This document shows, piece after piece, positions 4-30,384 of a stretch of DNA of 32,148 nucleotides. Source of the stretch: Armatimonadota bacterium (lineage in GTDB: Bacteria > Sysuimicrobiota > Sysuimicrobiia > Sysuimicrobiales > Sysuimicrobiaceae). The stretch spans positions 1 through 32,148 of the forward strand of contig JAVKGX010000017.1 in the NCBI GenBank assembly GCA_031432545.1. Direction: 5' to 3'. The translations under genes were made by a program, and so were the position numbers. Within the stretch, counting starts at the first letter, position 1, and every line of letters starts with the position of its first letter. Under the pieces are notes generated by a model. The model had not been told where the DNA came from, made no database searches, and was given only the letters and a program-made list of their open reading frames with translations.

Positions 4-1080
4 GTGGCACGCGGTCTCCAGGGGGCCCCAGACGCGGACGTCAATAGCCCGCATCCCGCGCTCGGGCACGTGGATCCCGCCCGGGTCCTGCGCTTCGGTC
101 AGGCGGGGCGCTCTCGGCTGGTCAGCATCAGTCTGACGTGGGCCATGGCGGGGATCCTCCTGCTCATCTTGGCGTTTGGGACGCCGCCTTCGCGTTCCGC
201 GCCGCCTCGGGCACCAGACCGTGCTGTCCTCGCCGTCCACGCCAACCGGCTCGAGGGAAAGTACGTCTTCCGCAGCCGGACCTGGGACCTCGAGCAGATC
301 CGGCGGGTGTTCAACGCCGTGATCGTCGCTGCCGGCGACCAGGATCTCGTCAGGGCGGCGCGGGCCGCAGGGCTCGCCGTCTACATTCAGTTCGACGAGA
401 AGCGCGACTTTGCAGCGGGCAAGGACATCGCCCCTACCGTTCGGGCCGTCGTCGCCCAGGTCCGTGCCAACCCGGGGACGATCGCGGGCATACGGATTGC
501 CGACGAACTCAACGAAGCGCTCGATCCACAGACGGCGCTTGCCTATCTGCGCGCGACCGGTGGCGTGCTGCGCCGCGAAGCCCCCGGCGTGCCGGTGATC
601 GTCGACGTGATCGACGGCGAGCTGACCTGCAACCAGCCGGGGCAGAGGCTGTGCGCGCAGTACCTCGTCGGCAACTCCCGCTACCTGCGCGACTACGTCC
701 TCAAGATGTTCTACGAATCCGGGTACGTCGACGGGTTCTTTCTGTCGACGAGCCTGCGCAACTTCGACCCGGACGTCCAGGCGAGGGCGTGGCAGAAGGC
801 TCGCGCGATGTTTCCGCAGCCGTTTTTGCTGTTCAACCGCACGGCGCAACTGTCGTTCTCCGAGCCTTCCTACCCGCACGACGCCGCGACGGCACGCAGA
901 CAGGTCGCGGCGCACGTCAGCGTGCCGCTTCTCCAGGGCGCCGACGGGGTCGACCTGTGGGCCTGGCACCGCCCCTGGCGCGACTCGCTGCGCACGTTCC
1001 TCGACAAGGACGGCCGCGCCAACCCGCTGTGGGATGCGCTGGTCCAGGCAGCGCGGGAGATGGGGGTCCACCGACCGTGA
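4..1080 (+). CDS. Membrane-anchored or secreted protein of unknown function, TIM-barrel glycoside-hydrolase-like
   Basis: I do not recognise the family with certainty. The protein has one hydrophobic segment (about residues 40-58, MAGILLLILAF) followed by a roughly 300-residue soluble domain. The segment IRIADELNEAL and the spacing of predicted beta/alpha units look like a (beta/alpha)8 barrel of the glycoside-hydrolase type, with E and D residues that could be catalytic, but no family motif is decisive. The start is uncertain: GTG at 4 gives 358 residues, while ATG at 145 would place the hydrophobic segment at the N terminus as a normal signal peptide or anchor; the gene may also begin before the window. 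Its stop overlaps the GTG of the next gene, so it is co-transcribed with the RiPP operon. Whether it acts on the RiPP or on a polysaccharide is unknown. Confidence 0.6.
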   Translation: MARGLQGAPDADVNSPHPALGHVDPARVLRFGQAGRSRLVSISLTWAMAGILLLILAFGTPPSRSAPPRAPDRAVLAVHANRLEGKYVFRSRTWDLEQIRRVFNAVIVAAGDQDLVRAARAAGLAVYIQFDEKRDFAAGKDIAPTVRAVVAQVRANPGTIAGIRIADELNEALDPQTALAYLRATGGVLRREAPGVPVIVDVIDGELTCNQPGQRLCAQYLVGNSRYLRDYVLKMFYESGYVDGFFLSTSLRNFDPDVQARAWQKARAMFPQPFLLFNRTAQLSFSEPSYPHDAATARRQVAAHVSVPLLQGADGVDLWAWHRPWRDSLRTFLDKDGRANPLWDALVQAAREMGVHRP

Positions 1081-2243
1081 CACGCTCCGTCGCGCCGACC
1101 ACACCCGCCCAAGCCCTGCTGCTGCTGTGCGCCAATCCTCAGGCGGCGACCGATGCGGTGGCTGCCGGGCTGCCCGCCGACGACGCGGCGTGGGAGGCCT
1201 TCCTGGCCCTCGCGGCCGGGCACGGCGTGCTCTCGCTCGTCCACCGACGCCTTAGCGCCGAAGCCATCCCGCTCTGGGTGGCGGCCCGGCTGCGCGCGGC
1301 CCTGGAGGACACCCTCGCGCAGAACCTGTTCCTGACCGCCGAACTGCTGCGCTTGCTGGAACGTTTCGCCGCCGGGGGGGTGCGGGTGATGCCGCTGAAG
1401 GGGCCGACGCTCGCCCTTCGGCTGTACGGAAACGTCGGACTTCGCGAAGTTCGGGACCTCGACGTGCTCGTGCATCCCTCAGACGCCGAGCCAGCCCACC
1501 GACTGCTCATGGAGTCCGGATACCGCCCCGACATCCCGCTGACGCCCCGGCAGGAGGCCTTCTATCTGGCCCACGGCGCGATGCGCAACTTCGTCCGCCG
1601 CGACGGTCGCATGGTCGTCGAGCTGCACTGGCGCCTGGCGCAGAGGTACCTGCTCTTTGCACTCCCTTTCGACGAGCTGTGGCGGCGCAGGACCGTCCAG
1701 CCGCTGGGAGGGCGGTCCATTCCCGATCTGGCGCCCGAAGACCTCCTGATCGTGCTGTGCGCGCACGGTGCCAAGCACCGCTGGTCGAGGCTGTTGTGGA
1801 TCGCCGACGTCGCGGAGTTTCTCTGGCACGAACGCCCTGACTGGGAAGCGACGCTCGAACGCGCACGGTCGATGGGCTGCACGCGGATGGTGCTTGTGGG
1901 GGCAACGCTTGCGGGATCGCTGCTGCGCGCCCCGTTGCCGGACATCCTCGCGGCAGGGGCGGCCACCGATCCAATGGTCGGTACGTTGCGCGACCAGGTG
2001 ACGCGTCGCCTGTGGGTGCCCGACCACTCCGCCGTGGCCGAAAGAGTGGGGTTTTCGATGTTCTACTACCGCTGCCGGGAGCGGATCGGCGACCGCCTTC
2101 GGTATGTCTGGAGGTCGGCCACCACGCCAAACCTGCAGGACTGGAGCGCCCTGCGACTGCCTCCGGCGCTGTCGGTGCTGTACTACGCATTCCGCCCGCT
2201 GCGCCTGATCTGGAAGTACGGCAGCGAGGTGGTCCGTGGGTAG
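1077..2243 (+). CDS. Nucleotidyltransferase family protein (PF14907-type), likely RiPP-tailoring
   Basis: 388 residues from a GTG that overlaps the previous stop (GTGA). The segment from about residue 105 (PLKGPTLA) to 132 (REVRDLDVLV) has the K-G and R-x-x-D-x-D pattern of the uncharacterised nucleotidyltransferase family PF14907, with D127 and D129 as the probable metal ligands. Genes of this family sit in paeninodin/pseudomycoidin-type lasso clusters beside an HPr-kinase-like gene; in pseudomycoidin the homologue was reported to add hexose to the phosphorylated C terminus. Here the kinase, precursor and maturation genes lie 2-5 kb downstream in the same orientation, which supports the same role. 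Substrate and donor cannot be read from sequence. A much longer open frame extends upstream to 138, but it overlaps the preceding gene and is not credible as coding. Confidence 0.85.
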   Translation: MTRSVAPTTPAQALLLLCANPQAATDAVAAGLPADDAAWEAFLALAAGHGVLSLVHRRLSAEAIPLWVAARLRAALEDTLAQNLFLTAELLRLLERFAAGGVRVMPLKGPTLALRLYGNVGLREVRDLDVLVHPSDAEPAHRLLMESGYRPDIPLTPRQEAFYLAHGAMRNFVRRDGRMVVELHWRLAQRYLLFALPFDELWRRRTVQPLGGRSIPDLAPEDLLIVLCAHGAKHRWSRLLWIADVAEFLWHERPDWEATLERARSMGCTRMVLVGATLAGSLLRAPLPDILAAGAATDPMVGTLRDQVTRRLWVPDHSAVAERVGFSMFYYRCRERIGDRLRYVWRSATTPNLQDWSALRLPPALSVLYYAFRPLRLIWKYGSEVVRG

Positions 2244-3282
2244 CCGGCCAGAAGCGTCGCACATGGACCTACGGGCAGACGGGACGACTGCGGGCCGCGC
2301 GCGCGCACCGTCGTTCAGGCAGGAAGGCAGCGGGTCTCCGGCGGTGGAGCTCGTGGAGGTGACGCGCCGCTTCGGCGCCGTCGTTGCCCTCGACCGGGTG
2401 TCGATGCGCGTCGTGCCGGGGCAGGTCGCAGCGCTGCTCGGCCCCAACGGCGCCGGCAAGACGACCCTGCTGCGCGTGCTGACCGGGCTGATAGACCCCC
2501 ACGAAGGAGAGGCGCGGATCCTGGGGCAGGCGGTGACCGACGGTGGATGGGTGACCAGGCGCCTTATCGGTTTGGTCCCCTCCGGCGACCGCACCTTCTA
2601 TCTGCGCCTGTCGGGCCTGGAAAACCTCGTCTTCTTCGCGAGGCTGCACGGGATGCGGGGGCGGCAGGCGGCCGGGCGGGCACGCGAGGTCCTCGACCAG
2701 GTCGGCCTGGCAGACGCCGGGGAGGTCGCCGTCGGGCGCTACTCCCACGGCATGCAGAAGCGGTTGTCGGTGGCGCGCGCGCTGTTGACCGACCCACCTG
2801 TCCTGCTGGTCGACGAGGCGACGCACGACCTGGATCCGGAGGGGGCACAGGCGGTCCGTACGCTCGTGCGCGCGCGCGCCGCGCGCGGCACGGCGGTGAT
2901 CTGGACGACCCAACGCGTCGAGGAGATCCGGGGCTTCGCCGACACCGTGACGGTGCTCGGTCGCGGACGTGTCCTGTTCGACGGTACGGTCCCGGAACTG
3001 CTGAGCCGGTCCTTGCCCCGCCGATACATCCTGCAGGTTCGCGACGGAGCGCGGCGTGTCCCGGACCTGGCCGAGGCGCTGGACAGAGCGCTGGGTACGA
3101 CCGGCACGATCGAGCCGACCGCACAGGCCGAACACTTCCTGCTCGCCCTGCCCGAGGGCGCGATCCTCGGCGATGCGGTGGCGGCCCTGACCGCTTCGAA
3201 CTTCCAGGTCCTGGCGTGCCGCGAGGAGACGCCGGAGGTCGAGCACGTCTTCTTGCAGATCACCCGAGGAGACAGCCGATGA
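2236..3282 (+). CDS. ABC transporter ATP-binding protein (probable RiPP export)
   Basis: 348 residues. Walker A GPNGAGKTT lies at about residues 69-77, followed by a signature region YSHGMQKR in place of LSGGQ and a Walker B segment VLLVDEATHDLDP. An accessory domain of about 100 residues follows the ATPase core, as in DrrA/CcmA-type exporters of the ABC-2 class. The start is GTG 2236, overlapping the nucleotidyltransferase stop by 8 bp. The first 36 residues are Arg/Gly/Ala rich and precede the ABC fold, so ATG 2263 or GTG 2344 are possible true starts. The stop overlaps the ATG of the permease (ATGA). The adjacent RiPP genes suggest that it exports the mature peptide and gives self-immunity, by analogy with lasso D proteins. 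Confidence 0.9.
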   Translation: MGSRPEASHMDLRADGTTAGRARAPSFRQEGSGSPAVELVEVTRRFGAVVALDRVSMRVVPGQVAALLGPNGAGKTTLLRVLTGLIDPHEGEARILGQAVTDGGWVTRRLIGLVPSGDRTFYLRLSGLENLVFFARLHGMRGRQAAGRAREVLDQVGLADAGEVAVGRYSHGMQKRLSVARALLTDPPVLLVDEATHDLDPEGAQAVRTLVRARAARGTAVIWTTQRVEEIRGFADTVTVLGRGRVLFDGTVPELLSRSLPRRYILQVRDGARRVPDLAEALDRALGTTGTIEPTAQAEHFLLALPEGAILGDAVAALTASNFQVLACREETPEVEHVFLQITRGDSR

Positions 3283-4121
3283 CGATCACGACGCCGCCAC
3301 GTCCGTATCCTGGCTTCCTGCCAGGGCTGGGGGCGGTTTGGGCGTTCGTGCGCCGCGACTTCCTGATCGCCTGGAGCTACCCGGTGAACTTCCTCAGCGG
3401 GTTCGCCGGCATGATCGGCCAGGTGGCGGTCTTCTACTTCGTCGCGCAGATCGTCGACCCGTCCCGGATCGGCGGGCAGGGGCCGACGGCATACGTCGCG
3501 TTCGTCTCGGTCGGTGTGGCGGTCACGACGTTCTTCCAGCTGGGTGCGTTCCGGCTGGCAACCGCCCTCAGGACGGAGCAGTTCATCGGGACGATCGAGT
3601 CGCTGCTCGTGGCGCCGGTTTCCATGGTGACGCTCCAGTTCGGGCTCGTCGCCTACGAACTGATGCTGTTGCCCGTGCGGATGGCCCTGTTCCTGGGCAT
3701 GGTCGGCCTGCTCGGAGTGACGCTCCACCCGGCCGGGGTCCTCTCGGCTCTTTTGTTGCTGGTCGCCTTCGCACCCTTCGTCGCCGGCGTCGCTGCGCTC
3801 AGCGCCGCGGCGACGCTGCGGTTCAAAAACGCCTGGAGCGTGATCGGTGCGGGGACCGCCGCGCTGGCCGTGCTGTCCGGCGCGTACTTCCCCGTCTCCG
3901 TGTTCCCGCAATGGCTCTTTCATCTGGCCGCGGTCAACCCGATGGCGATCGTGCTGGACGGGATGCGCGCGGCGCTGCTGAGCGGTTCCGGATGGGCCGA
4001 CGTCGCGCCCGATGTGCTGGCCGTGTTGGCCATCTCTGTGGCGACGCTGCTTGTGGGGCTCGGGGCGTTCCAAGCGGCGTTCCGCGCAGAGCGTCGACGC
4101 GGGACGCTTGGCCTGTACTGA
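3279..4121 (+). CDS. ABC-2 type permease
   Basis: 280 residues with about six hydrophobic segments: around residues 38-60 (NFLSGFAGMIGQVAVFYFV), 70-90, 115-145, 148-175, 185-205 and 245-268. This is the size and layout of ABC-2 family exporters (DrrB/NatB/NodJ-like). A conserved-type stretch FPVSVFPQWL and the following LDGMRAAL match the loop and helix seen in ABC-2 permeases. The ATG overlaps the ATPase stop and the two proteins would form the exporter together (a 2+2 arrangement, unlike the single fused ATPase/membrane protein common in proteobacterial lasso clusters). It lies 8 bp before the PqqD-like gene, so it is in the same operon. The substrate is inferred only from context. Confidence 0.9.
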   Translation: MTITTPPRPYPGFLPGLGAVWAFVRRDFLIAWSYPVNFLSGFAGMIGQVAVFYFVAQIVDPSRIGGQGPTAYVAFVSVGVAVTTFFQLGAFRLATALRTEQFIGTIESLLVAPVSMVTLQFGLVAYELMLLPVRMALFLGMVGLLGVTLHPAGVLSALLLLVAFAPFVAGVAALSAAATLRFKNAWSVIGAGTAALAVLSGAYFPVSVFPQWLFHLAAVNPMAIVLDGMRAALLSGSGWADVAPDVLAVLAISVATLLVGLGAFQAAFRAERRRGTLGLY

Positions 4122-4129
4122 GGTGCTCG

Positions 4130-4414
4130 ATGATCACCGCGCAGACGAAGATCGTCCGCAACGACCGGGTCGTCTACCAGGAACTCGCGCCCGGCCAGGG
4201 CGCGGTGCTGCTGCACCTGGACACCGCACACTACCACGGGCTCAATCCGGTGGGTGCCCTGATCTGGGACCTGCTGGGGACGGAGGGCGCGACGCTGGGG
4301 GAGGTCCTGGCCGGTGTACGGGCCGCCGTGCCGGACGCGCCGGATGCCGTGGAGCGAGACGTGAGGGAGTTCATACAAGCTCTGGCCGACCGCGACGTCG
4401 TGCGCACCACCTGA
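4130..4414 (+). CDS. PqqD-family RiPP recognition element (lasso B1-type leader-binding protein)
   Basis: 94 residues, the usual length of a free-standing PqqD-like RRE. Visible features are the N-terminal beta strands with VVYQEL and AVLLHLDTAHYHGLNP, then GALIWDLLG, which is the conserved hydrophobic/Trp patch of the family, and a C-terminal three-helix winged-helix part ending FIQALADRDVV. In actinobacterial and firmicute lasso clusters this protein binds the leader YxxPxL motif and delivers the precursor to the peptidase B2. The precursor gene starts 48 bp downstream and carries that motif, and a separate B2-like gene lies at 7389-7802, so the split B1/B2 arrangement is complete. The start is ATG 4130 with a GAGGTG ribosome site just upstream. 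Confidence 0.93.
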   Translation: MITAQTKIVRNDRVVYQELAPGQGAVLLHLDTAHYHGLNPVGALIWDLLGTEGATLGEVLAGVRAAVPDAPDAVERDVREFIQALADRDVVRTT

Positions 4415-4462: not shown

Positions 4463-4618
4463 ATGAGGTACGAGAAGCCGCAGGTCGCGGACTTCGGACT
4501 GATCCAGGATCACACCTTCACACGGTGTGGTGGCTCTGGACCACCACCCAAGGACTGGGACTGCTCCTGTCCGCGCGACAAGTTCGGAGAAGCGTCCTGC
4601 GGCCATACGGGGACGTAG
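4463..4618 (+). CDS. Lasso-type RiPP precursor peptide (51 residues)
   Basis: This short gene encodes a leader fitting the lasso consensus YxxPxLxxxGxxxxxT: Y3, P6, V8 (for L), G12 and T18, with Thr at the expected penultimate leader position. The presumed core begins near T20 and holds four cysteines (C22, C34, C36, C46), a GGSGPPPKD segment at 23-31, a DKFGEAS segment at 39-45 and a C terminus CGHTGT. A normal lasso ring needs Asp or Glu at core position 7, 8 or 9. With a core starting at T20 there is none (D31 would be position 12). D31 would serve only if cleavage left G23 or G24 as the first residue. The gene lies between the leader-binding protein and the cyclase gene and has a perfect ribosome site. 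Confidence is high that it is the precursor, low on the final topology. Confidence 0.9.
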   Translation: MRYEKPQVADFGLIQDHTFTRCGGSGPPPKDWDCSCPRDKFGEASCGHTGT

Positions 4619-4643
4619 GTGCGACAGCACCCGTAACCCCGCA

Positions 4644-4677
4644 CTCCGCGGTCCGCGTCCCACCCGGGACCGCGGAG
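4644..4677 (+). promoter_or_regulatory. Stem-loop between precursor and cyclase genes
   Basis: CTCCGCGGTCC (4644-4654) and GGACCGCGGAG (4667-4677) form a perfect 11-bp stem with a 12-base loop. It sits 26 bases after the precursor stop and 37 bases before the cyclase ATG, and no T-run follows. Such hairpins after RiPP precursor genes commonly stabilise the upstream message or give partial read-through, so that peptide exceeds enzyme. The role is inferred; the structure is seen. Confidence 0.75.
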
Positions 4678-4713
4678 TCGCTCCACGATGTCCCCGGTGG
4701 CGAACGCTGAGCT

Positions 4714-6478: not shown

Positions 6479-7396
6479 ATGACGACAGACGGCCTGCGGG
6501 CGTGCTCCGGTTTCGCGGTCCGGTCGGAGTTGGAGTTCCACTACCTCCGGCACGGCGGCGGCGTGCCTCTGGAGATCGTCGGCGGCGCCCGACCGGGGCC
6601 AGACCCGCACGACGAACTGTGGATCGAGTGGACACCCCGACCGGACAACGCCCTGCACGCCCGTCTGTACTCCGACGGGCGCACCTACCGGCTGTGGATC
6701 TCGGAGGTCGGCTGGTACCGCGTGCAGCCCGATGTCCTGCGGATCGAGGTCCCGGACACGGACGAACACCTGCGGCGCGAACACCGGCTGTGGGGCCTGC
6801 CGACCACGCTGTGCGCGGTCGGACGCGGCGACCTGACGCTCCACGCCGCCGCGGTTGAGGCGCACGGAGGCGCGATCGTGCTGGCCGGACCCAGCCGGTT
6901 CGGAAAGACCACGCTCGCAGCGGCCTTCCACCAGGCCGGGTTCCGACTGCTCTCCGAGGACCTGACGTGCATACGACCGCTGCCACAGCCGGCGGCCGTC
7001 CCAGGTCCGGCGACGCTGCGGATCCGCAGGGACGTCGCCGACCGGCTGGCTCTGTCCGGTGTGTGCGAGGTGGGACGCCTCGACGACCGGGTGTGCCTGG
7101 CGATCGACGACGCCCGTCGCGGGGATTGTACCCCCGTGCCCCTGCGCGCGGTGGTCTTCCTGCGCGCCGGCAACGGCTCGCCCCGGCTGGAGCCCACGAC
7201 GCTCCGCGACGGGCTCGCGGACCTGTGGACCCTGGCGTTCCGGCTGCCCAACGACCCCGACCGCACCCGGTGCTTCGCGGGCGTCGCAGCGGTCGCACGA
7301 ACCGTCTCGCTGTGGAACTTCCACCGCGCGCTCAGGCTGGAAGACCTGCCGGCGGCGGTCGCCACGCTCTCCGCACTCTGCCACAGCGATGCGTGA
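6479..7396 (+). CDS. HPr-kinase/phosphorylase-like lasso tailoring kinase (K protein)
   Basis: 305 residues. The C-terminal domain has the P-loop GPSRFGKTT (residues 137-145), preceded by LHAAAVEAHGG, which matches the HPrK-type motif placing a catalytic His just before the P-loop. A downstream acidic segment LLSEDLTCI is the likely metal-binding region. The N-terminal 110 residues are a beta-rich domain of unknown detail, as in other lasso-cluster kinases. Characterised homologues (ThcoK, PadeK) phosphorylate the C-terminal Ser of lasso precursors. The precursor here ends in Thr (T51), so Thr would be the predicted acceptor. It is placed between the cyclase and the peptidase, overlapping the peptidase gene by 8 bp. 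A role in carbon-catabolite HPr regulation is unlikely given this context. Confidence 0.88.
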   Translation: MTTDGLRACSGFAVRSELEFHYLRHGGGVPLEIVGGARPGPDPHDELWIEWTPRPDNALHARLYSDGRTYRLWISEVGWYRVQPDVLRIEVPDTDEHLRREHRLWGLPTTLCAVGRGDLTLHAAAVEAHGGAIVLAGPSRFGKTTLAAAFHQAGFRLLSEDLTCIRPLPQPAAVPGPATLRIRRDVADRLALSGVCEVGRLDDRVCLAIDDARRGDCTPVPLRAVVFLRAGNGSPRLEPTTLRDGLADLWTLAFRLPNDPDRTRCFAGVAAVARTVSLWNFHRALRLEDLPAAVATLSALCHSDA

Positions 7397-7802
7397 GCCA
7401 CCCGCGAACCCGCTTTCGCTTGCGGCCAAGGTGCGTCTGCTCCTGCGCGTGTGGGGCTGCTACGCGCGCGTGCGCTTCGGGATGGGACGGGTTCCCTTCC
7501 CGGAATTCGTCGCGGCGCTCGGCCGGCCCACGCGTCTTGCGCGCCGGCGGTACCCACCCCGGACCCTGAGCCGCGCGGTGGCGCGCAGTCTCACGTTCGG
7601 TCGCATCGGCCCGACCTGTCTGGTCAACGCTCTGGTCCTCTACCGTCTGCTGCGCGAGCAGGGGGACCCGGCCGAGGTCGTCATCGGCCTGCCGCCCCAT
7701 GCGGCCGACCACCGTGCGCACGCCTGGGTGGAACTCGACGGCCAGGACGTCGGCCCCCCACCCGGCCGCAGCGGCCACACAGCGATGGTCCGGTTCGCAT
7801 GA
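7389..7802 (+). CDS. Transglutaminase-like leader peptidase (lasso B2-type)
   Basis: 137 residues, the usual size of stand-alone B2 proteins. The triad of the lasso-B2 transglutaminase fold is visible: Cys77 in PTCLVNALVLYRLLR, His111 in RAHAWVEL and an Asp (probably D120) in DGQDVG. The first ~70 residues are Arg-rich and hydrophobic and probably contact the leader or B1. The enzyme would cut the precursor leader near T18-F19 once the leader is presented by the PqqD-like protein. The ATG at 7389 overlaps the kinase stop by 8 bp, and the stop overlaps an upstream in-frame ATG of the epimerase gene, so translation is coupled. Confidence 0.9.
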   Translation: MREPPANPLSLAAKVRLLLRVWGCYARVRFGMGRVPFPEFVAALGRPTRLARRRYPPRTLSRAVARSLTFGRIGPTCLVNALVLYRLLREQGDPAEVVIGLPPHAADHRAHAWVELDGQDVGPPPGRSGHTAMVRFA

Positions 7803-11916: not shown

Positions 11917-11999
11917 ACCCGCGACAAGGGCACCCCGCCCGCGAGGGCGGTTCGCAAAGCCACGGGACTGGCGACAGTCAGCCGGGCTGCCGAACGGGG
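11917..11999 (+). promoter_or_regulatory. c-di-GMP-I (GEMM) riboswitch
   Basis: The hallmark GEMM elements are present in order. AAGGGCA precedes a perfect stem CCGCCC / GGGCGG (11935-11940 / 11945-11950) closed by a GCGA (GNRA) tetraloop. CGCAAAGCCACGGG then follows, next a hairpin GACTG-GCGA-CAGTC (11966-11979), and then AGCCGGGCTGCCGAA. CCCG (11918-11921) can pair with CGGG (11995-11998) as the closing P1 stem. These are the conserved ligand-pocket and tetraloop-docking parts of the family. The related 3',3'-cGAMP subclass (GEMM-Ib) differs at very few bases and is not excluded. A transcription terminator follows within 10 bases, so control is probably at termination, acting on the DUF1996 lipoprotein gene. 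Confidence 0.9.
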
Positions 12000-12007
12000 A
12001 CGGACGG

Positions 12008-12052
12008 GAGCAGACGGTCCTGTTTTGCGCGGGCCTGTCTGCTCTTGTTTTT
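12008..12052 (+). terminator. Rho-independent terminator of the riboswitch expression platform
   Basis: GAGCAGACGG (12008-12017) pairs with CCTGTCTGCTC (12034-12044) with one bulged T, followed by TTGTTTTT. It lies between the aptamer and the lipoprotein ATG at 12100, so it ends the leader transcript unless folding is altered by ligand. Whether ligand turns the gene on or off cannot be read directly. Confidence 0.8.
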
Positions 12053-12063
12053 CGGGTGCAGAG

Positions 12064-12091
12064 CCCTCGCGCGGGCGTACGCCTGCGAGGG
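12064..12091 (+). promoter_or_regulatory. Hairpin overlapping the lipoprotein ribosome site
   Basis: CCCTCGC (12064-12070) pairs with GCGAGGG (12085-12091), with an inner GGC/GCC stem around GTAC. The 3' arm runs into GAGGGAGGAG, the Shine-Dalgarno region of the gene starting at 12100. It may add translational control after the terminator or simply shape the 5' end of the read-through transcript. Confidence 0.5.
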
Positions 12092-12099
12092 AGGAGACC

Positions 12100-13008
12100 A
12101 TGGGCACGCACACAGGGTTGTCCAGAGTCTGGCTCGTCTACGCCATGGTCCTGGTCGTGGCCGCGTGCGGCGGTGGCGCGCTCACCGGCGTAGGTCCGGG
12201 TCCCGGCTCGGACCCCGAGGTTGAGCCTGAATCCGGTAGCCCGGGCTGGATCGTCCAGTGTCCGTTCTCCCACGCGCTGGCCGACGACCCGATCGTGCAC
12301 TTCGGACACGCCGGCGCAAGCCACCTGCATGACTTCTTCGCCAACCGGAGCACCAACGCCTCGAGCACCTACTCGTCAATGGCCACGTCCGAGACCACAT
12401 GCAGCCCGACATCGGGAGACACAGCCGGTTACTGGACGCCTGCGCTGTACCGGGACGGCGTGAAGATCGACCCCGCCGGCAGCTACGGCGGCCGCAACGC
12501 CCGCCAGCGCTTCTACTATCGGAAGAACAACCTCGCCTCCACAACCCGTATCCACGCGCCTCCACCGGACCTGAGGGTCGTCGTGGGCAACGCGGGCGCG
12601 ATGACCGCTGCCGACAACCCTCTGCTCGGCCGTGAAATCTACTGGGGATGTGCGGACAACAGCACCGGGAAGCTCAAGGAGCCACCCACGTCCTGCTCGG
12701 TCGGGATCATCTCGCTCCACGTCGGGTTCCCCAACTGTTGGGACGGCAGGAACCCCGACTCCGCCGACCACCGCAGCCACCTCGCATACCCGAAGAGCGG
12801 CGCATGCCCGGCCACGCACCCGGTGGCCATTCCCAGGATCATCATGCGGCTGGAGTTCCCGGTGGGCACGACGACGGGGAACATTACCCTTGCGAGCGGG
12901 AGCGTGTACAGCATCCATGGCGACTTCTGGAACACGTGGGACCAGTCCAGGCTCCAGAAGCTCACCGATGACTGCCTGAACCGCAACGTCGACTGCGGCC
13001 GGCTCTGA
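12100..13008 (+). CDS. DUF1996-domain lipoprotein, c-di-GMP-riboswitch controlled
   Basis: 302 residues. The N terminus has a short charged start, a hydrophobic stretch and the lipobox VVAAC, so the mature protein is probably lipid-anchored outside the cytoplasmic membrane. The rest matches DUF1996: a His-rich opening (HFGHAGASHLHDFFANRST), a Ser/Thr/Cys stretch, YWTPALYRDG, then conserved Cys residues and GISLHVGFPNCWDG-like and GDFWNTWD segments. The molecular function of DUF1996 is unknown; members are secreted in fungi and bacteria. The ATG at 12100 has GGAGGAG upstream. The riboswitch suggests production linked to a lifestyle switch such as attachment, matching the surface-polysaccharide neighbours. 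Confidence 0.9.
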   Translation: MGTHTGLSRVWLVYAMVLVVAACGGGALTGVGPGPGSDPEVEPESGSPGWIVQCPFSHALADDPIVHFGHAGASHLHDFFANRSTNASSTYSSMATSETTCSPTSGDTAGYWTPALYRDGVKIDPAGSYGGRNARQRFYYRKNNLASTTRIHAPPPDLRVVVGNAGAMTAADNPLLGREIYWGCADNSTGKLKEPPTSCSVGIISLHVGFPNCWDGRNPDSADHRSHLAYPKSGACPATHPVAIPRIIMRLEFPVGTTTGNITLASGSVYSIHGDFWNTWDQSRLQKLTDDCLNRNVDCGRL

Positions 13009-25245: not shown

Positions 25246-25970
25246 CTCCCGCCGCCTCCGATGCGAGGGACCGCCGTGACGGCGCGGGGCGAACTGCGTC
25301 GGTCGCGGACGAGGTCGTAGATCGCCAGACCCGCGGCCGCGAGTGCGAGAAAGAAGCCGGGGCCGAACATGGCCACCGTCGCGAACTGCGCGATCTCGCC
25401 CCGTCCCAGGATCACTGGCATGAATGGCTCCAGGCGGATCGGCGCCGCCGGATCCAGAGAGTGCCCGAAGCGCCACAGCCAGTATGCGATGTCGGCGACG
25501 ACCGCCGCGGGGAAGGCGATCGCCGGAAGACGCAGGAGGACTCGGAACCGCCGGACCCACGCCGACAGCGCCAGGCCCAGCGCGAACAGCAGCACGGTGG
25601 GGACGGCCACGCTGCGTTCGAGCGGCGCCGCCTCGTCGAGCGCCTTCATCCCGATGTAGTGGTTGAGGTTGCTGATCTCGTCCGTGTCGCCCTTCACGTG
25701 CGTCAGGTACACGCTCGCGCGCAGCCCGCCCGGATACTGCGGCGCGTACAGCGTGATCGTCCAGTAGGGAAACAGCAGCGACGCGACGAGCAGGACAGCC
25801 GCGAAGACGGGCACCGGCGGGTGCACCATCGGCCGGGCCACTGGGACGTTCACCCGTACAAGCTTACGGGCCGCCGCGGCCGCTTCGGGGCCGCCTTTGG
25901 AGGCGGGATGGCCGGGGGCGTCCCCGCCGGCCACCCACTCCCGCTTCCGCGCCCGGGTGCCCAGGGTCAC
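25242..25970 (-). CDS. nosB: NosB-like membrane protein of clade II nos clusters
   Basis: Up to 242 residues from GTG 25970, overlapping the nosZ stop (GTGA). A downstream GTG giving VNVPVARPMVHPP would remove the Ala/Lys-rich start. Four membrane segments are visible, including PVFAAVLLVASLLFPYW, a segment around AVPTVLLFALGLALSAWV, LPAIAFPAAVVADIAYWLW and FATVAMFGPGFFLALAAA. The loop ISNLNHYIGMKALDEA is a NosB-type feature. NosB is specific to Sec-type (clade II) nitrous oxide reductase clusters, where it follows nosZ directly; its biochemical function is not established. It is placed in the operon between nosZ and nosD. Confidence 0.82.
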   Translation of the reverse strand: MTLGTRARKREWVAGGDAPGHPASKGGPEAAAAARKLVRVNVPVARPMVHPPVPVFAAVLLVASLLFPYWTITLYAPQYPGGLRASVYLTHVKGDTDEISNLNHYIGMKALDEAAPLERSVAVPTVLLFALGLALSAWVRRFRVLLRLPAIAFPAAVVADIAYWLWRFGHSLDPAAPIRLEPFMPVILGRGEIAQFATVAMFGPGFFLALAAAGLAIYDLVRDRRSSPRAVTAVPRIGGGGR

Positions 25971-27940
25971 GGAGCGACCTCCAGATACCCCATCATCTCC
26001 AGGTGCAGCGCCGAGCAGAACTCGGTGCAGTAGAAGGGGAACACACCGGGCGTCGTCGCCCGGAACCTGACCGTCTCGTGCTTGCCCGGTTCGAGGCTGA
26101 GGTTGATGTTGTAACCGGCCAGCGCGAAGCCGTGGATCGCATCCTTGGTCTTCTCGATGTTGGTGATGTGGAACACCACGGTGTCCCCCCGCCGTACGCG
26201 GATTCGGTCGGGCGTGAAGTGGCTGCGCATCGCGGTCATGTACACGTGCACCGTGTTGCCCTCGCGGACGATCCGCTGCTTGCCGGGCTGCACCGCCCGC
26301 GGGTCGGGCTGCATCGTCAGCGGGTTGGTCCCCACCGGGTAGGTCTCCCACGACTTGACCTTGCTGATCGGGATGATCTGCGCCAGGTGTGGTTCGCCGA
26401 CCCCGATGGGCATGTTGTACAGCAGCTTCATCTCGTCGCCGCTGATGTCGATGAGCTGAAAGTTCTGCGGGAACAGCGGGCCCACGTTGCTGTACTGGTC
26501 GACCGACCACTTGTTCATGGCCACCAGGTACTTCCCGCCCGGCTTGACCGTGTCGCCCTCGACCGCGGTGAGGTGCCCGATGTTGTACTGTACCGGCAGC
26601 TTCTGGACAAGCTTCCAGGCGTCGTCACCCGTTTTGTACGGTGGGCCGAGCGTCCACTTTGCGACGGCGCTGTCCAGAAACAGGCTCGTGTAGGCGTTGC
26701 CCTTGTCGTCGAACATCGTGTGCAGCGGGCCCAACCCGATCTTCACCTGAGCAGCCACGACCGCGTCGAACTTCAGGATCGGCACGCCGTACGGGTCGCG
26801 ACCGCTGAAGGCCTGATCCCGGATCGCCTGCTGGATCTTCTCGAAGCTGTAGACGGTCACGTTGGGGTCGAGCTTCCCGCCGACCACGATGTAGTCGCCG
26901 CGCGGGGCGACGTCGTTGCCGTGCGGACTCTTCGGCTGCGGGGCGAAGTACAGGACTCCGTTGTCCACCGCCTCCTTGAGCGTCAGGACGCGCATACCGT
27001 TCACGACGGTGCCCTTGCCCTGCGCGACCAACTCCGCAGCCTTGCGGTAGTCGATGATGTGCAGGTAGTCCATGTCGTTGGCGGACGCCCCGATCTCCAC
27101 CGGTGGCTTGCCCTCGAGCGTGCCGCCGATCGCACGCTCCGTGTTGAACGAGTTGATGAACACCCAGCCGTCGCTGACGAGCTTGCCGAAGTCCGCCAGG
27201 TCCTGCCAGTAGGGAGGCAGCTCAATCTGGAACGACCGAGCGGGGTCGATGCGCCCCTTGTCGCGGTCGAAGCGCCAGAAGGTCGCCAGCCCGCGGAAGT
27301 ACTGATTGTAGTTCTCCTGCGTTACGGGCATAGGACGCGGCGGGAACGGGATCGCGTACTGCGTGCTCTCGAGGACGTAGTCGGTGTTCGGGCTGACCAC
27401 CGCCCCGTGGTTGCTCCACGCGTTCGGATTCTTGACGATCTGCTTGGTCGCGAAGTCACGGAGGTCGATCACCGCCATGCGCGCGTTGCCCTTGTCGTTA
27501 ATGAACAGGAACTGCCCGTCGTACTCCCCGTTGGTCTCGCTCAACGCCGGGTGGTGAGTGTCGCCCCACGAGATCGGGGTTCGGTCGGCCCCGTGGTGAC
27601 CCAGGACCTCCTGGGTCTCTTGGCTGAAGCCGTACCCCTGCCACGGTTCCGGCGCGAACACGCCGATCACGCGCAGCAGTCGCATGGACGGGATGCCGAT
27701 GACGAGCACCTGCCCGCCCTGGCCGCCGGACGTGAACATCAGATAGTCGTCGTACTTTCCCGGCGGCACGTAGGTCTGGATCGCAGCCCTCACCTGCTCC
27801 GGTGTCAGCTCTCGGGCCTGGATCAGGCCCTGGAGGTCCTGGGGCAGCGCGGCACCACCCCCTCCCGTCTGGCAGCCCGCCAGTGCCAAGGCGACCGCCA
27901 GCACGGCGATGGCGCTCAATGACATCCGATTGGCTCTCAT
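25967..27940 (-). CDS. nosZ: Nitrous oxide reductase, clade II (Sec-type) NosZ
   Basis: 657 residues. The reaction is N2O + 2e- + 2H+ to N2 + H2O. The signal lacks a Tat twin-Arg and ends in a lipobox (ALAGC, Cys23), so it is a Sec-exported lipoprotein-type enzyme, the hallmark of clade II. The seven-bladed propeller holds the His ligands for CuZ in DTHHPA, WSNHGAV, SPHGND, GPLHTMFDDKGNAYTS, NIGHLTAVEGD and GEPHLAQI. The C-terminal cupredoxin domain has the CuA ligands C638, C642, H646 and M649 plus an earlier His. The ATG at 27940 overlaps the Rrf2 stop. It catalyses the last step of denitrification; no nir/nor genes are in the window. Confidence 0.97.
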   Translation of the reverse strand: MRANRMSLSAIAVLAVALALAGCQTGGGGAALPQDLQGLIQARELTPEQVRAAIQTYVPPGKYDDYLMFTSGGQGGQVLVIGIPSMRLLRVIGVFAPEPWQGYGFSQETQEVLGHHGADRTPISWGDTHHPALSETNGEYDGQFLFINDKGNARMAVIDLRDFATKQIVKNPNAWSNHGAVVSPNTDYVLESTQYAIPFPPRPMPVTQENYNQYFRGLATFWRFDRDKGRIDPARSFQIELPPYWQDLADFGKLVSDGWVFINSFNTERAIGGTLEGKPPVEIGASANDMDYLHIIDYRKAAELVAQGKGTVVNGMRVLTLKEAVDNGVLYFAPQPKSPHGNDVAPRGDYIVVGGKLDPNVTVYSFEKIQQAIRDQAFSGRDPYGVPILKFDAVVAAQVKIGLGPLHTMFDDKGNAYTSLFLDSAVAKWTLGPPYKTGDDAWKLVQKLPVQYNIGHLTAVEGDTVKPGGKYLVAMNKWSVDQYSNVGPLFPQNFQLIDISGDEMKLLYNMPIGVGEPHLAQIIPISKVKSWETYPVGTNPLTMQPDPRAVQPGKQRIVREGNTVHVYMTAMRSHFTPDRIRVRRGDTVVFHITNIEKTKDAIHGFALAGYNINLSLEPGKHETVRFRATTPGVFPFYCTEFCSALHLEMMGYLEVAP

Positions 27941-28404
27941 CGTCCTCCTCCTTCCTTTTGCTGATGGTCCACACTCTGGCACTCGAATCGGCGCTCGAAA
28001 GCCGCCGGCGACGAAAGGGCGGCCAGCGTCGTATCCGCCATGCGCGCGGCGATCCATGGCCGCAATGATGCCCACAAGGAGTGCAACGGGCAGGGCGCCC
28101 GGTCGGAACAGCCGTTGCCCCAGAACGCGCAGCGCGCGAACAGGTCCGGCCCCTCGATGCCTTCGAGGATTTCCCGGACCGTGATCCGCTGCGGTTCGCG
28201 CGCCAGCCTGTAGCCGCGCCGGCGCCCGCGGTGGGACGCGAGCAGTCCGCAGGCGACGAGCTTGCGCAACGTCTTCGCCAGGAATGCGGGCGGAAGCCCG
28301 TTGGCGCGCGCGATCTGCACGAGCGGGACGATCGCTCCCTGCGGTTGGGAAGCCAGATACCTCAGGCTCACCAGCGCGTACTCGCTTTCCTTGACGAGGT
28401 GCAT
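27937..28404 (-). CDS. Rrf2-family Fe-S regulator, first gene of the nos operon
   Basis: 155 residues. The N-terminal winged helix begins MHLVKESEYALVSLRYLA. Three cysteines suited to an Fe-S cluster follow, C92-x6-C99-x5-C105 (RCAFWGNGCSDRAPC). This layout is like NsrR/IscR/RirA proteins that sense NO, Fe-S status or iron. Its stop overlaps the nosZ ATG (ATGA), so it probably controls its own operon. The last residues are basic and Gln-rich and unlike the conserved domain. A ~160-bp spacer upstream holds an inverted repeat that might be its operator. Whether the signal is NO, O2 or Fe-S demand is not visible. Confidence 0.92.
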   Translation of the reverse strand: MHLVKESEYALVSLRYLASQPQGAIVPLVQIARANGLPPAFLAKTLRKLVACGLLASHRGRRRGYRLAREPQRITVREILEGIEGPDLFARCAFWGNGCSDRAPCPLHSLWASLRPWIAARMADTTLAALSSPAAFERRFECQSVDHQQKEGGGR

Positions 28405-28471
28405 GCTCTCTTCCGCTCCCCATACGCGCGAGCCCGGCGGCCGCCGCCTTCAGCGATCGCCAGGCTCGCCT

Positions 28472-29403: not shown

Positions 29404-30384
29404 TCACCGCACGATCAGAGCCGTCACCATGCCATGCATGCCGTGGTCGGATTCGGCGTGGCTGAGGATGTGGCAGTGGAAGGCCCACACGCCGGGTTCC
29501 GTGGCATCGATCACCACGTCGATCCGTTCGCCCGGCGCAATGTTCAGGGTGTCCACCATGTACGGTTGCGGCAAGGGGTATCCGTCCTTGGCCATGACGC
29601 GCATCGGCATGCCGTGCAGGTGCATCGGGTGGATGATCAGTCCCTCGTTCATGAACCGCACGCGCAGCCGCTCCCCCCGTCGGACCACGATCGGCTCGGT
29701 CGCCGGGAAGCCCTTGCCGTTGATCGTGTAACCGAGCGGCCCGTCGTTGAGGATCATCACCACGTCGTGGTTCACTCGGGGCTCCCCCCGCTTGTCCCGC
29801 GGCTCAACGATGAACGCGCCCAGCAATCCCATCGGCACCTGACGGTCGGCCGCGTGGTGGGAATGGTACATGTGCGAACCGGGATTGCGCGCGGTTAGCT
29901 CGTAGACGAACGTCTCACCGGGTTTGACCGGCGGCTGCGTGATGTAGGGGACGCCATCCATGCTGTTCGGTACGACCAGACCGTGCCAGTGGATCGCCGT
30001 ACTTTCGGGCAACTCGTTCTTGAAGATCACCCGCACGCGGTCGCCCTCGGTCACGCGGATCGTGGGGCCCGGGACGGTGCCGTTGTAAGCGAAGGCGCGT
30101 CGCTTTTCGCCCGGCGTGACCTCCCACTCGATCTCCGAGGCCGTGATCCGGAAGACCTTGACGCCGTCGACGACCTCCGGCTCGATGGGCTGCGCTCCCC
30201 TCCCTTCGGTCTTTGCGGGGAACGCCTTCACGACGGCCTCGTGCATCTGGTCGATCATCTGCGCACGCTCCGCCGCGGTGGGCGTGTGCGTGGCCTCGGG
30301 GGTGGGAGCCACCGCGCCCCGTGGCGCACACGCACCGAGGGTAAGAGCGGCCGCGATCAGGACCTGCCCGGCGAGTTTCGACAT
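29404..30384 (-). CDS. Two-domain multicopper oxidase lipoprotein
   Basis: 326 residues with a lipobox Cys19 (TLGAC). The four copper-binding clusters are HWH (132-134), H-x2-H-S-H-H (171-177), HPMHLH (252-257) and HCHILSH (303-309), plus T1 ligands C304 and M316. All sites for the T1 and trinuclear centres are present in a two-domain chain, the size of two-domain laccase-like enzymes that trimerise. It lacks the NirK-type catalytic arrangement (no HxxC...PGM type 1 site), so a copper nitrite reductase is unlikely. It could oxidise copper or a small electron donor and pass or use electrons with the downstream cupredoxin. ATG 30384 has AGGAGGAC upstream. Confidence 0.88.
   Translation of the reverse strand: MSKLAGQVLIAAALTLGACAPRGAVAPTPEATHTPTAAERAQMIDQMHEAVVKAFPAKTEGRGAQPIEPEVVDGVKVFRITASEIEWEVTPGEKRRAFAYNGTVPGPTIRVTEGDRVRVIFKNELPESTAIHWHGLVVPNSMDGVPYITQPPVKPGETFVYELTARNPGSHMYHSHHAADRQVPMGLLGAFIVEPRDKRGEPRVNHDVVMILNDGPLGYTINGKGFPATEPIVVRRGERLRVRFMNEGLIIHPMHLHGMPMRVMAKDGYPLPQPYMVDTLNIAPGERIDVVIDATEPGVWAFHCHILSHAESDHGMHGMVTALIVR

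Follow-up and report, generated by a model that had tools for sequence, protein, structure and literature searches.

The rule used to recognise lasso peptides and to predict their cores is that the N-terminus of the core is joined to an Asp or Glu at position 7-9. The locus described here raises the question of where a ring would close when a precursor with a lasso-type leader, encoded among lasso genes, does not offer that acid. It lies in a 32,148-base stretch of DNA (hereafter the window), which is one contig of a 2.19 Mb genome. Gene A encodes the product MRYEKPQVADFGLIQDHTFTRCGGSGPPPKDWDCSCPRDKFGEASCGHTGT (translation of the ORF at 4463-4618, + strand), and a AAGGAGGTGA ribosome site can be read from the sequence ahead of its start. 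This 51-residue precursor is real and sits within a complete kinase-type lasso cluster; it is not a chance ORF, since its neighbours are lasso biosynthesis genes and the same type of precursor occurs beside the same genes in 16 other genomes.

All genes of the cluster are on one strand, in the order nucleotidyltransferase (NTase), ABC transporter, permease, B1, A, C, HprK-like kinase and B2 (Table 1). The precursor is thus accompanied by the genes that mark a lasso cluster (B1 RiPP recognition element or RRE, B2 peptidase and Asn-synthetase-type C) and by those that mark the paeninodin type (HprK-like kinase and NTase). The Cys and His of B2 are kept in 11 of 11 sequences. The kinase matches fall under the family-model cut-offs, and the kinase His, P-loop Lys and Glu-Asp are kept in 14/14; characterised kinases carry His-Lys-Asp-Asp (PMC9266682). 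The hairpin between A and C possibly limits read-through or protects the A transcript.

Table 1. Features of the cluster and of the precursor gene, in window coordinates.
Feature	Position	Strand	Evidence and remarks
Nucleotidyltransferase (NTP_transf_5)	1080..2243	+	PF14907 4e-63; typical of kinase-type lasso clusters
ABC transporter ATPase (predicted export)	2236..3282	+	PF00005
ABC-2 type permease	3279..4121	+	PF01061
B1, PqqD-like RiPP recognition element	4130..4414	+	PF05402 1.2e-14; NF033530 2e-10, sub-cut-off
Precursor gene A, 51 aa	4463..4618	+	Translated ORF; single copy in its genome
Leader M1-F19: RRE motif Y3xxP6xV8, G12, T18-F19; predicted B2 cut behind F19	4463..4519	+	Conservation in 17 precursors; register from PMC10368454
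Linker T20-P29, holds C22	4520..4549	+	Precursor alignment; length 6-40 aa across 17 precursors
Module K30-[D]-x7-D39-x3-E43-x-S45 (KDWDCSCPRDKFGEAS)	4550..4597	+	Proposed cyclisation site K30/D39; possible kinase recognition at E43/S45
C-terminal tail C46-T51	4598..4615	+	12/17 precursors end in Ser/Thr; paeninodin-type kinases, PMC9266682
GC-rich hairpin between A and C	4641..4680	+	RNA folding of 4615-4700: -41.7 kcal/mol, z -3.3
C, Asn-synthase-type cyclase, 585 aa	4714..6471	+	PF00733 7e-25; SGGIDS present, position 2 without Cys
HprK-related kinase with His, P-loop Lys, Glu-Asp	6479..7396	+	TIGR04352 6e-12, sub-cut-off
B2 leader peptidase, transglutaminase-like	7389..7802	+	NF033537, 52 bits against a cut-off of 33

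The best NCBIfam match of the C protein is NF033535, but at 127 bits against a cut-off of 525. Its predicted structure (AlphaFold pLDDT 89) has an Asn-synthetase-like fold, with TsnB9 and beta-lactam synthetase as the best Foldseek matches; solved lasso cyclases are not among the PDB matches to this structure. An alignment of 11 C proteins showed that SGG[IVL]DS is kept, as is a Lys that aligns near K443 of beta-lactam synthetase. The N-terminal catalytic Cys is missing from every C protein with an intact N-terminus in this sample, so normal glutamine use should be impossible, and a peptide amine rather than ammonia is the expected nucleophile. The predicted structure was also considered as a guide to the attacking amine and dropped, as it shows the fold and is silent on which amine attacks.

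The 16 relatives of the window precursor come from four phyla and bring the family to 17 precursors. The first 11 (the window and 10 others) were collected by cyclase homology and then by leader pattern alone, with no pre-selection of cores: cyclase homology in relatives gave G020 and G034, the latter from the window's own taxonomic order, and a cyclase-alignment scan of 84,980 species genomes gave 8 further genomes (Actinomycetota, Gemmatimonadota and Spirochaetota). A profile built from these 11 retrieved six more precursors (L042, L043, L045, L048, L049 and L050), which are not independent support for the conserved module described below because their search model already includes it. Searches with the precursor model at the class, order and phylum level added few members, a plasmid collection yielded distant matches only, and the NCBIfam and Pfam precursor models gave the family only weak, sub-threshold matches (NF033521, NF033528 and DUF5972).

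A C gene lies near the precursor at 16/17 loci (split across two contigs in G034), and L043 is at a contig end. Those loci also hold B1, the kinase and ABC genes and, on contigs of sufficient length, usually B2. In a tree that includes three Asn synthetases and a lasso-type cyclase from Paenibacillus, the 16 C proteins group as a single clade (support 100/99), which makes one common mechanism a reasonable assumption. No description of this precursor family was found in open-licence papers, and an earlier account may exist elsewhere; the branch looks undescribed. Separately, a precursor-like ORF, MTFEAPRVVDFGSIARHAFEGEENVTNDWWHGLF, adjoins B1 and kinase genes at about 6586-6691 of L060 (G224:C131). 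Its leader is of the family type with HAF for HTF, and its short core lacks the K-D-E-S module, so variants of the family exist.

Studied lasso leaders carry Tyr(-17), Pro(-14) and Leu(-12), with Thr at -2 and rarely Ile or Val there (PMC10368454), and the accepted leader pattern is [Y/W]xxPx[L/V/I/A/F/Y] (PMC13381572). The window leader, YEKPQV...G.....T, contains [Y/W]xxPx[LVI] and a penultimate Thr (Y3/P6/V8/T18). The first-pass annotation had described an exact match to YxxPxLxxxGxxxxxT, which holds for all but the L position; this is Val8, an accepted variant. Because Y3 and T18 are 15 residues apart, as in the Tyr(-17)/penultimate(-2) register (PMC10368454), F19 would be -1 and T20 core residue 1, in agreement with the first-pass placement of the core start near T20. 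The residues Y, P, G, T and F are kept in 17/17 precursors (Y is F in one), and the Y-T spacing is 15 in all of them.

Read in this T20 register, core positions 7-9 of the window precursor are G, P and P, as had been pointed out, so that neither Asp nor Glu stands at core 7, 8 or 9. The four cysteines are at 22, 34, 36 and 46, again as stated there. An acid at these positions is missing in 16 of the 17 precursors; the exception has D7, and none has one at 8 or 9. Two controls do obey the ordinary rule when read in this register, namely L064 from Paenibacillus cellulosilyticus (...DLIQ|GTCGWGTE, ring G1-E8) and L059 from a Gemmatimonadota genome (...ELTG|AGGSQPGTD, ring A1-D9). Three other assignments were tried and rejected. 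A ring beginning at C22, a residue that the family does not conserve, would have D31 as its tenth residue. A Lys replacing the ring acid at core 7-8 was dropped because the members with long linkers do not fit. Finally, the window, G020 and G034 could all be read as ordinary lasso peptides (G1-D9, starting 3-4 residues past Thr-Phe), a reading broken by 14 more sequences, as L029 and L048 have no usable acid ahead of the module.

What the family keeps instead is a module further downstream, K[G/S/D/N/Q]-x(5-8)-D-x3-E-x-S, which follows a linker of 6-40 residues in the 17 precursors. Its Lys sits 8-10 residues before the conserved acid in 16/17 (shuffle mean 3.9), with L027 at 6. Among the 11 precursors found irrespective of the module, the Lys spacing is present in 10 (shuffle mean 2.6) and [DE]x3-4ExS in all 11 (shuffle mean 0.24). 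The position of D39 is D in 15 precursors, E in L025 and shifted by one residue in L027; E43 is E in 17/17, four residues past the acid (five in L027), and S45 is S in 17/17, two residues past the E. The alignment that had been proposed as a check for an invariant acid therefore singles out the D39 and E43 positions and not D31, which aligns with the variable residue behind the Lys (G in 7, D in 5, S in 3, otherwise Q or N). The conserved K30, D39, E43 and S45 were absent from the first-pass account. The K-to-D distance is near constant, whereas the acid lies nearer to or further from the predicted N-terminus depending on linker length. The Thermoleophilia precursors L054 (at 4585) and L055 (at 8232, both +) share the identical stretch HKDHIVCETDKFGEYSCGS and have different linkers, which marks the module as the constrained part.

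On balance, and with a modest degree of confidence, we interpret the family as a widespread lasso-type RiPP branch with phosphorylated products and a cyclase that acts on a displaced module; the 6-residue K-D spacing of L027 is an exception that counts against this. In the proposed pathway, B1 would bind YxxPxV and B2 would cut behind T18-F19, as the canonical register predicts. C would then adenylate Asp39 or, less likely, Glu43, and would close the ring on an amine near Lys30 rather than on the T20 N-terminus; the ABC genes would export the product. The choice of acid rests on L029 (QTPGKGTKSTNTTYQLDKYNEYSHPAAGS), whose only post-leader acids are the module's own D and E, so that a common mechanism needs D39 or E43 as the acceptor. 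L048 has a single extra post-leader acid, a D at position 1. D39 is preferred over E43 because the K-to-D spacing is tighter, and the cyclase most likely acts on D39, as judged from these alignments.

The donor is the less certain half of the proposal. We slightly and tentatively favour the Lys30 side chain, which would give an isopeptide ring K30-D39; T20-P29 would then remain as an extension at the N-terminus, held through C22 by a disulphide. The module site is Lys in 17 precursors and Arg in none (p 0.004 from the K:R ratio of the remaining post-leader region), which supports a Lys side chain. Just three precursors, those of the window, L030 and L032, have a Cys in the linker; they lie in different parts of the C tree, and all three have an odd Cys count after the Lys. 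The only further precursor with an odd count is L050 (Fisher p 0.006, post hoc and from a small sample). This parity suggests that the linker is kept in the product by a disulphide, and so favours the side chain. We found no precedent in open-licence papers for an Asn-synthetase-type cyclase that uses a Lys side chain. If the ring is of this kind, an Asn-synthetase-fold cyclase would join the side chains of K30 and D39 and leave the N-terminal tail, and the product would be a side-chain-closed lariat, possibly threaded, found in at least four phyla; we hold this, too, to be a possibility well short of an even chance.

A close second, and also short of probable, is that the D31 alpha-amine is the donor after an additional cut behind K30, which would give a 9-residue lasso ring D31-D39. 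A hypothetical cut behind the module Lys would yield rings of 8 (5 precursors), 9 (9), 10 (2) and 6 (1) residues, of size 8 or 9 in 14/17 and thus largely within the lasso range; in 10 precursors the ring would begin with Gly or Ser. It would begin with Asp in five, the window precursor among them, which counts against this donor, and no gene for a protease or for cutting behind Lys was noticed in the cluster neighbourhoods. The first-pass idea of a new topology in the lasso enzyme family may still turn out to be right, while the thioether-like links that it also proposed find no support, as the cluster has no enzyme for them.

The best surviving rival to cyclisation at the module is an ordinary lasso with a shifted leader cut, with a ring G23-D31 (nine residues, as had been counted correctly) or G24-D31 (eight), the tail W32-T51 and two disulphides. 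These were the fallback rings of the first-pass annotation. A Gly-to-acid spacing of 7-9 lies upstream of the module in 13/17 precursors (the window and 12 others) against 6.2 in shuffled sequences (p=0.00025), in a test that ignores the clustering of glycine at the linker start and of acids near the Lys, and the ring would also be G1-D9 in G034, L026 and G020. Set against these pairs, D31 is the residue behind the conserved Lys and is not itself conserved, and L029, L030, L045 and L048 have no Gly-to-acid pair of this spacing upstream of the module. The starting Gly would lie 2-7 residues or more past T-F, so that the B2 cut would vary and the Thr would be at -4 to -9 and not -2; K30, D39, E43 and S45 would also be left unexplained. 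We regard an ordinary ring as unlikely, although the excess of Gly-to-acid pairs over shuffling keeps it a minor candidate for the window precursor.

Two further readings are more improbable still, and about equally so. A large macrolactam from the N-terminus at T20 to D39 or E43 (20 or 24 residues in the window) would combine the known alpha-amine-to-Asp/Glu chemistry with the predicted B2 cut and would use conserved acids. Its ring sizes across the family would run from about 15 to more than 50 residues, whereas lasso cyclases are size-selective (PMC13352647), and the invariant Lys would be left without a role. The T20 amine is an unlikely donor because its distance to D39 differs from member to member and the first core residue is not conserved (T, Q, D, A, V, M or I). 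Alternatively, there may be no ring, with the product a linear phosphorylated peptide resembling the Bacillota linear polyphosphorylated peptides (LPP), and C inactive or otherwise employed. The set of kinase, NTase and RRE and the sugar-locus context match those linear peptides (PMC13381572), but their clusters have no cyclase and use a signal-peptidase homologue, whereas here C is present at all loci but the contig-end L043, with its ATP-binding motif and conserved Lys intact, and B2 keeps its Cys and His. That C amidates D39 or E43 with glutamine, as an enzyme of Asn-synthetase-like fold might, is very improbable given the missing N-terminal Cys.

Known kinases of this type modify a C-terminal Ser (paeninodin) or Ser3 (Bsf, LPP) (PMC9266682, PMC10368454, PMC13381572). 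The window precursor ends in Thr; a terminal Ser or Thr, in keeping with modification of the C-terminus by paeninodin-type kinases, is present in 12/17 precursors, and S45 in 17/17. The kinase would phosphorylate a Ser or Thr near the C-terminus, with S45 or the terminal residue (T51 in the window) as its likely target.

Several family clusters lie in polysaccharide loci. An epimerase and a UDP-glucose dehydrogenase are encoded downstream of the window cluster. G020 is followed by genes for glycosyltransferases and for a sugar transferase; a sugar transferase is also encoded near L030, and a flippase near L054. Paeninodin and LPP clusters of Bacilli are often found in capsule loci, where their role is unknown (PMC13381572). 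These neighbouring genes suggest a surface or capsule role for the product. We also observed genes for secreted GHL15 proteins (hypothetical glycosyl hydrolases) within a few kb of L029 (twice), L054 and L055. In the sugar-gene region of the window, a c-di-GMP-I riboswitch (11919-11994, +; Rfam RF01051, 55.9 bits) lies upstream of an ORF at 12025-13008. Further along, 25967-28423 (-) and 29404-30384 (-) look by eye like NosZ (nitrous oxide reductase) and a copper nitrite reductase-like protein, and are probable denitrification genes. Elsewhere, less than 10 kb of L058 (G648:C24; 4500-13927) holds two nucleotidyltransferases along with three B1-like RREs and two B2-like regions. At least two RiPP systems are thus neighbours there, with leader discrimination possible.

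Mining tools built on the ring rule would mis-predict a coherent branch, spread over four phyla, that keeps the machinery and breaks this rule. If the Lys side chain is the donor, an internal Lys can serve lasso cyclases as nucleophile, a new bond class for this fold; if there is a second cut, lasso leaders can be longer than supposed and carry an additional cleavage site marked by Lys. In both cases the family would provide a new scaffold for engineered cyclic peptides.

Among known systems, paeninodin-type clusters (PadeA/B1/B2/C/K/NTase) share with the window family the gene set, the YxxPx leader and Thr(-2) in the same register (PMC9266682), and the Ser or Thr at the end of 12 of the 17 precursors is a further likeness. 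Paeninodin-type cores have the ring acid 7-9 residues past the cut, whereas the window family has no such acid and carries the K-D-E-S module. The Paenibacillus relative L064, whose C protein is 25% identical, would have the ordinary ring G1-E8. Its paeninodin-type precursor, YTTPTMVEFGHSNDLIQGTCGWGTENLS..., at position 6642 (+) of NZ_CP054613.1, has Ile(-2), G1-E8 and a Cys-rich tail, and the PLSDB gene table lists no gene at this site of the Paenibacillus cellulosilyticus replicon. The Bsf type (BsfA of Bradymonas sediminis) is similar in its kinase and NTase and in its leader with Tyr(-17), Pro(-14) and Leu(-12), and differs in its Gly1-Asp8 ring, its Ile(-2) and its phosphorylation on Ser3 (PMC10368454). 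Bacillota LPP clusters also have an RRE, an HprK-like kinase, an NTase and a polysaccharide setting (PMC13381572). In contrast to the window, they have neither C nor B2 and use a SipW-like peptidase, which sets the window cluster outside the LPP type. In class I lasso peptides the ring joins Cys1 to Asp9. Similar to the window, class I peptides (the siamycin/sviceucin group) have four core-region cysteines that allow two disulphides (PMC13352647). The Cys1-Asp9 register itself is not available in the window precursor. Graspetides of the microviridin type contain Lys-to-Asp side-chain bonds. They are made by ATP-grasp ligases, whereas the window has an Asn-synthetase-type enzyme with B1 and B2, and a family search found no ATP-grasp protein among the window cluster proteins scanned. 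The K30-D39 bond, if right, would nevertheless be of the same type as the graspetide bond.
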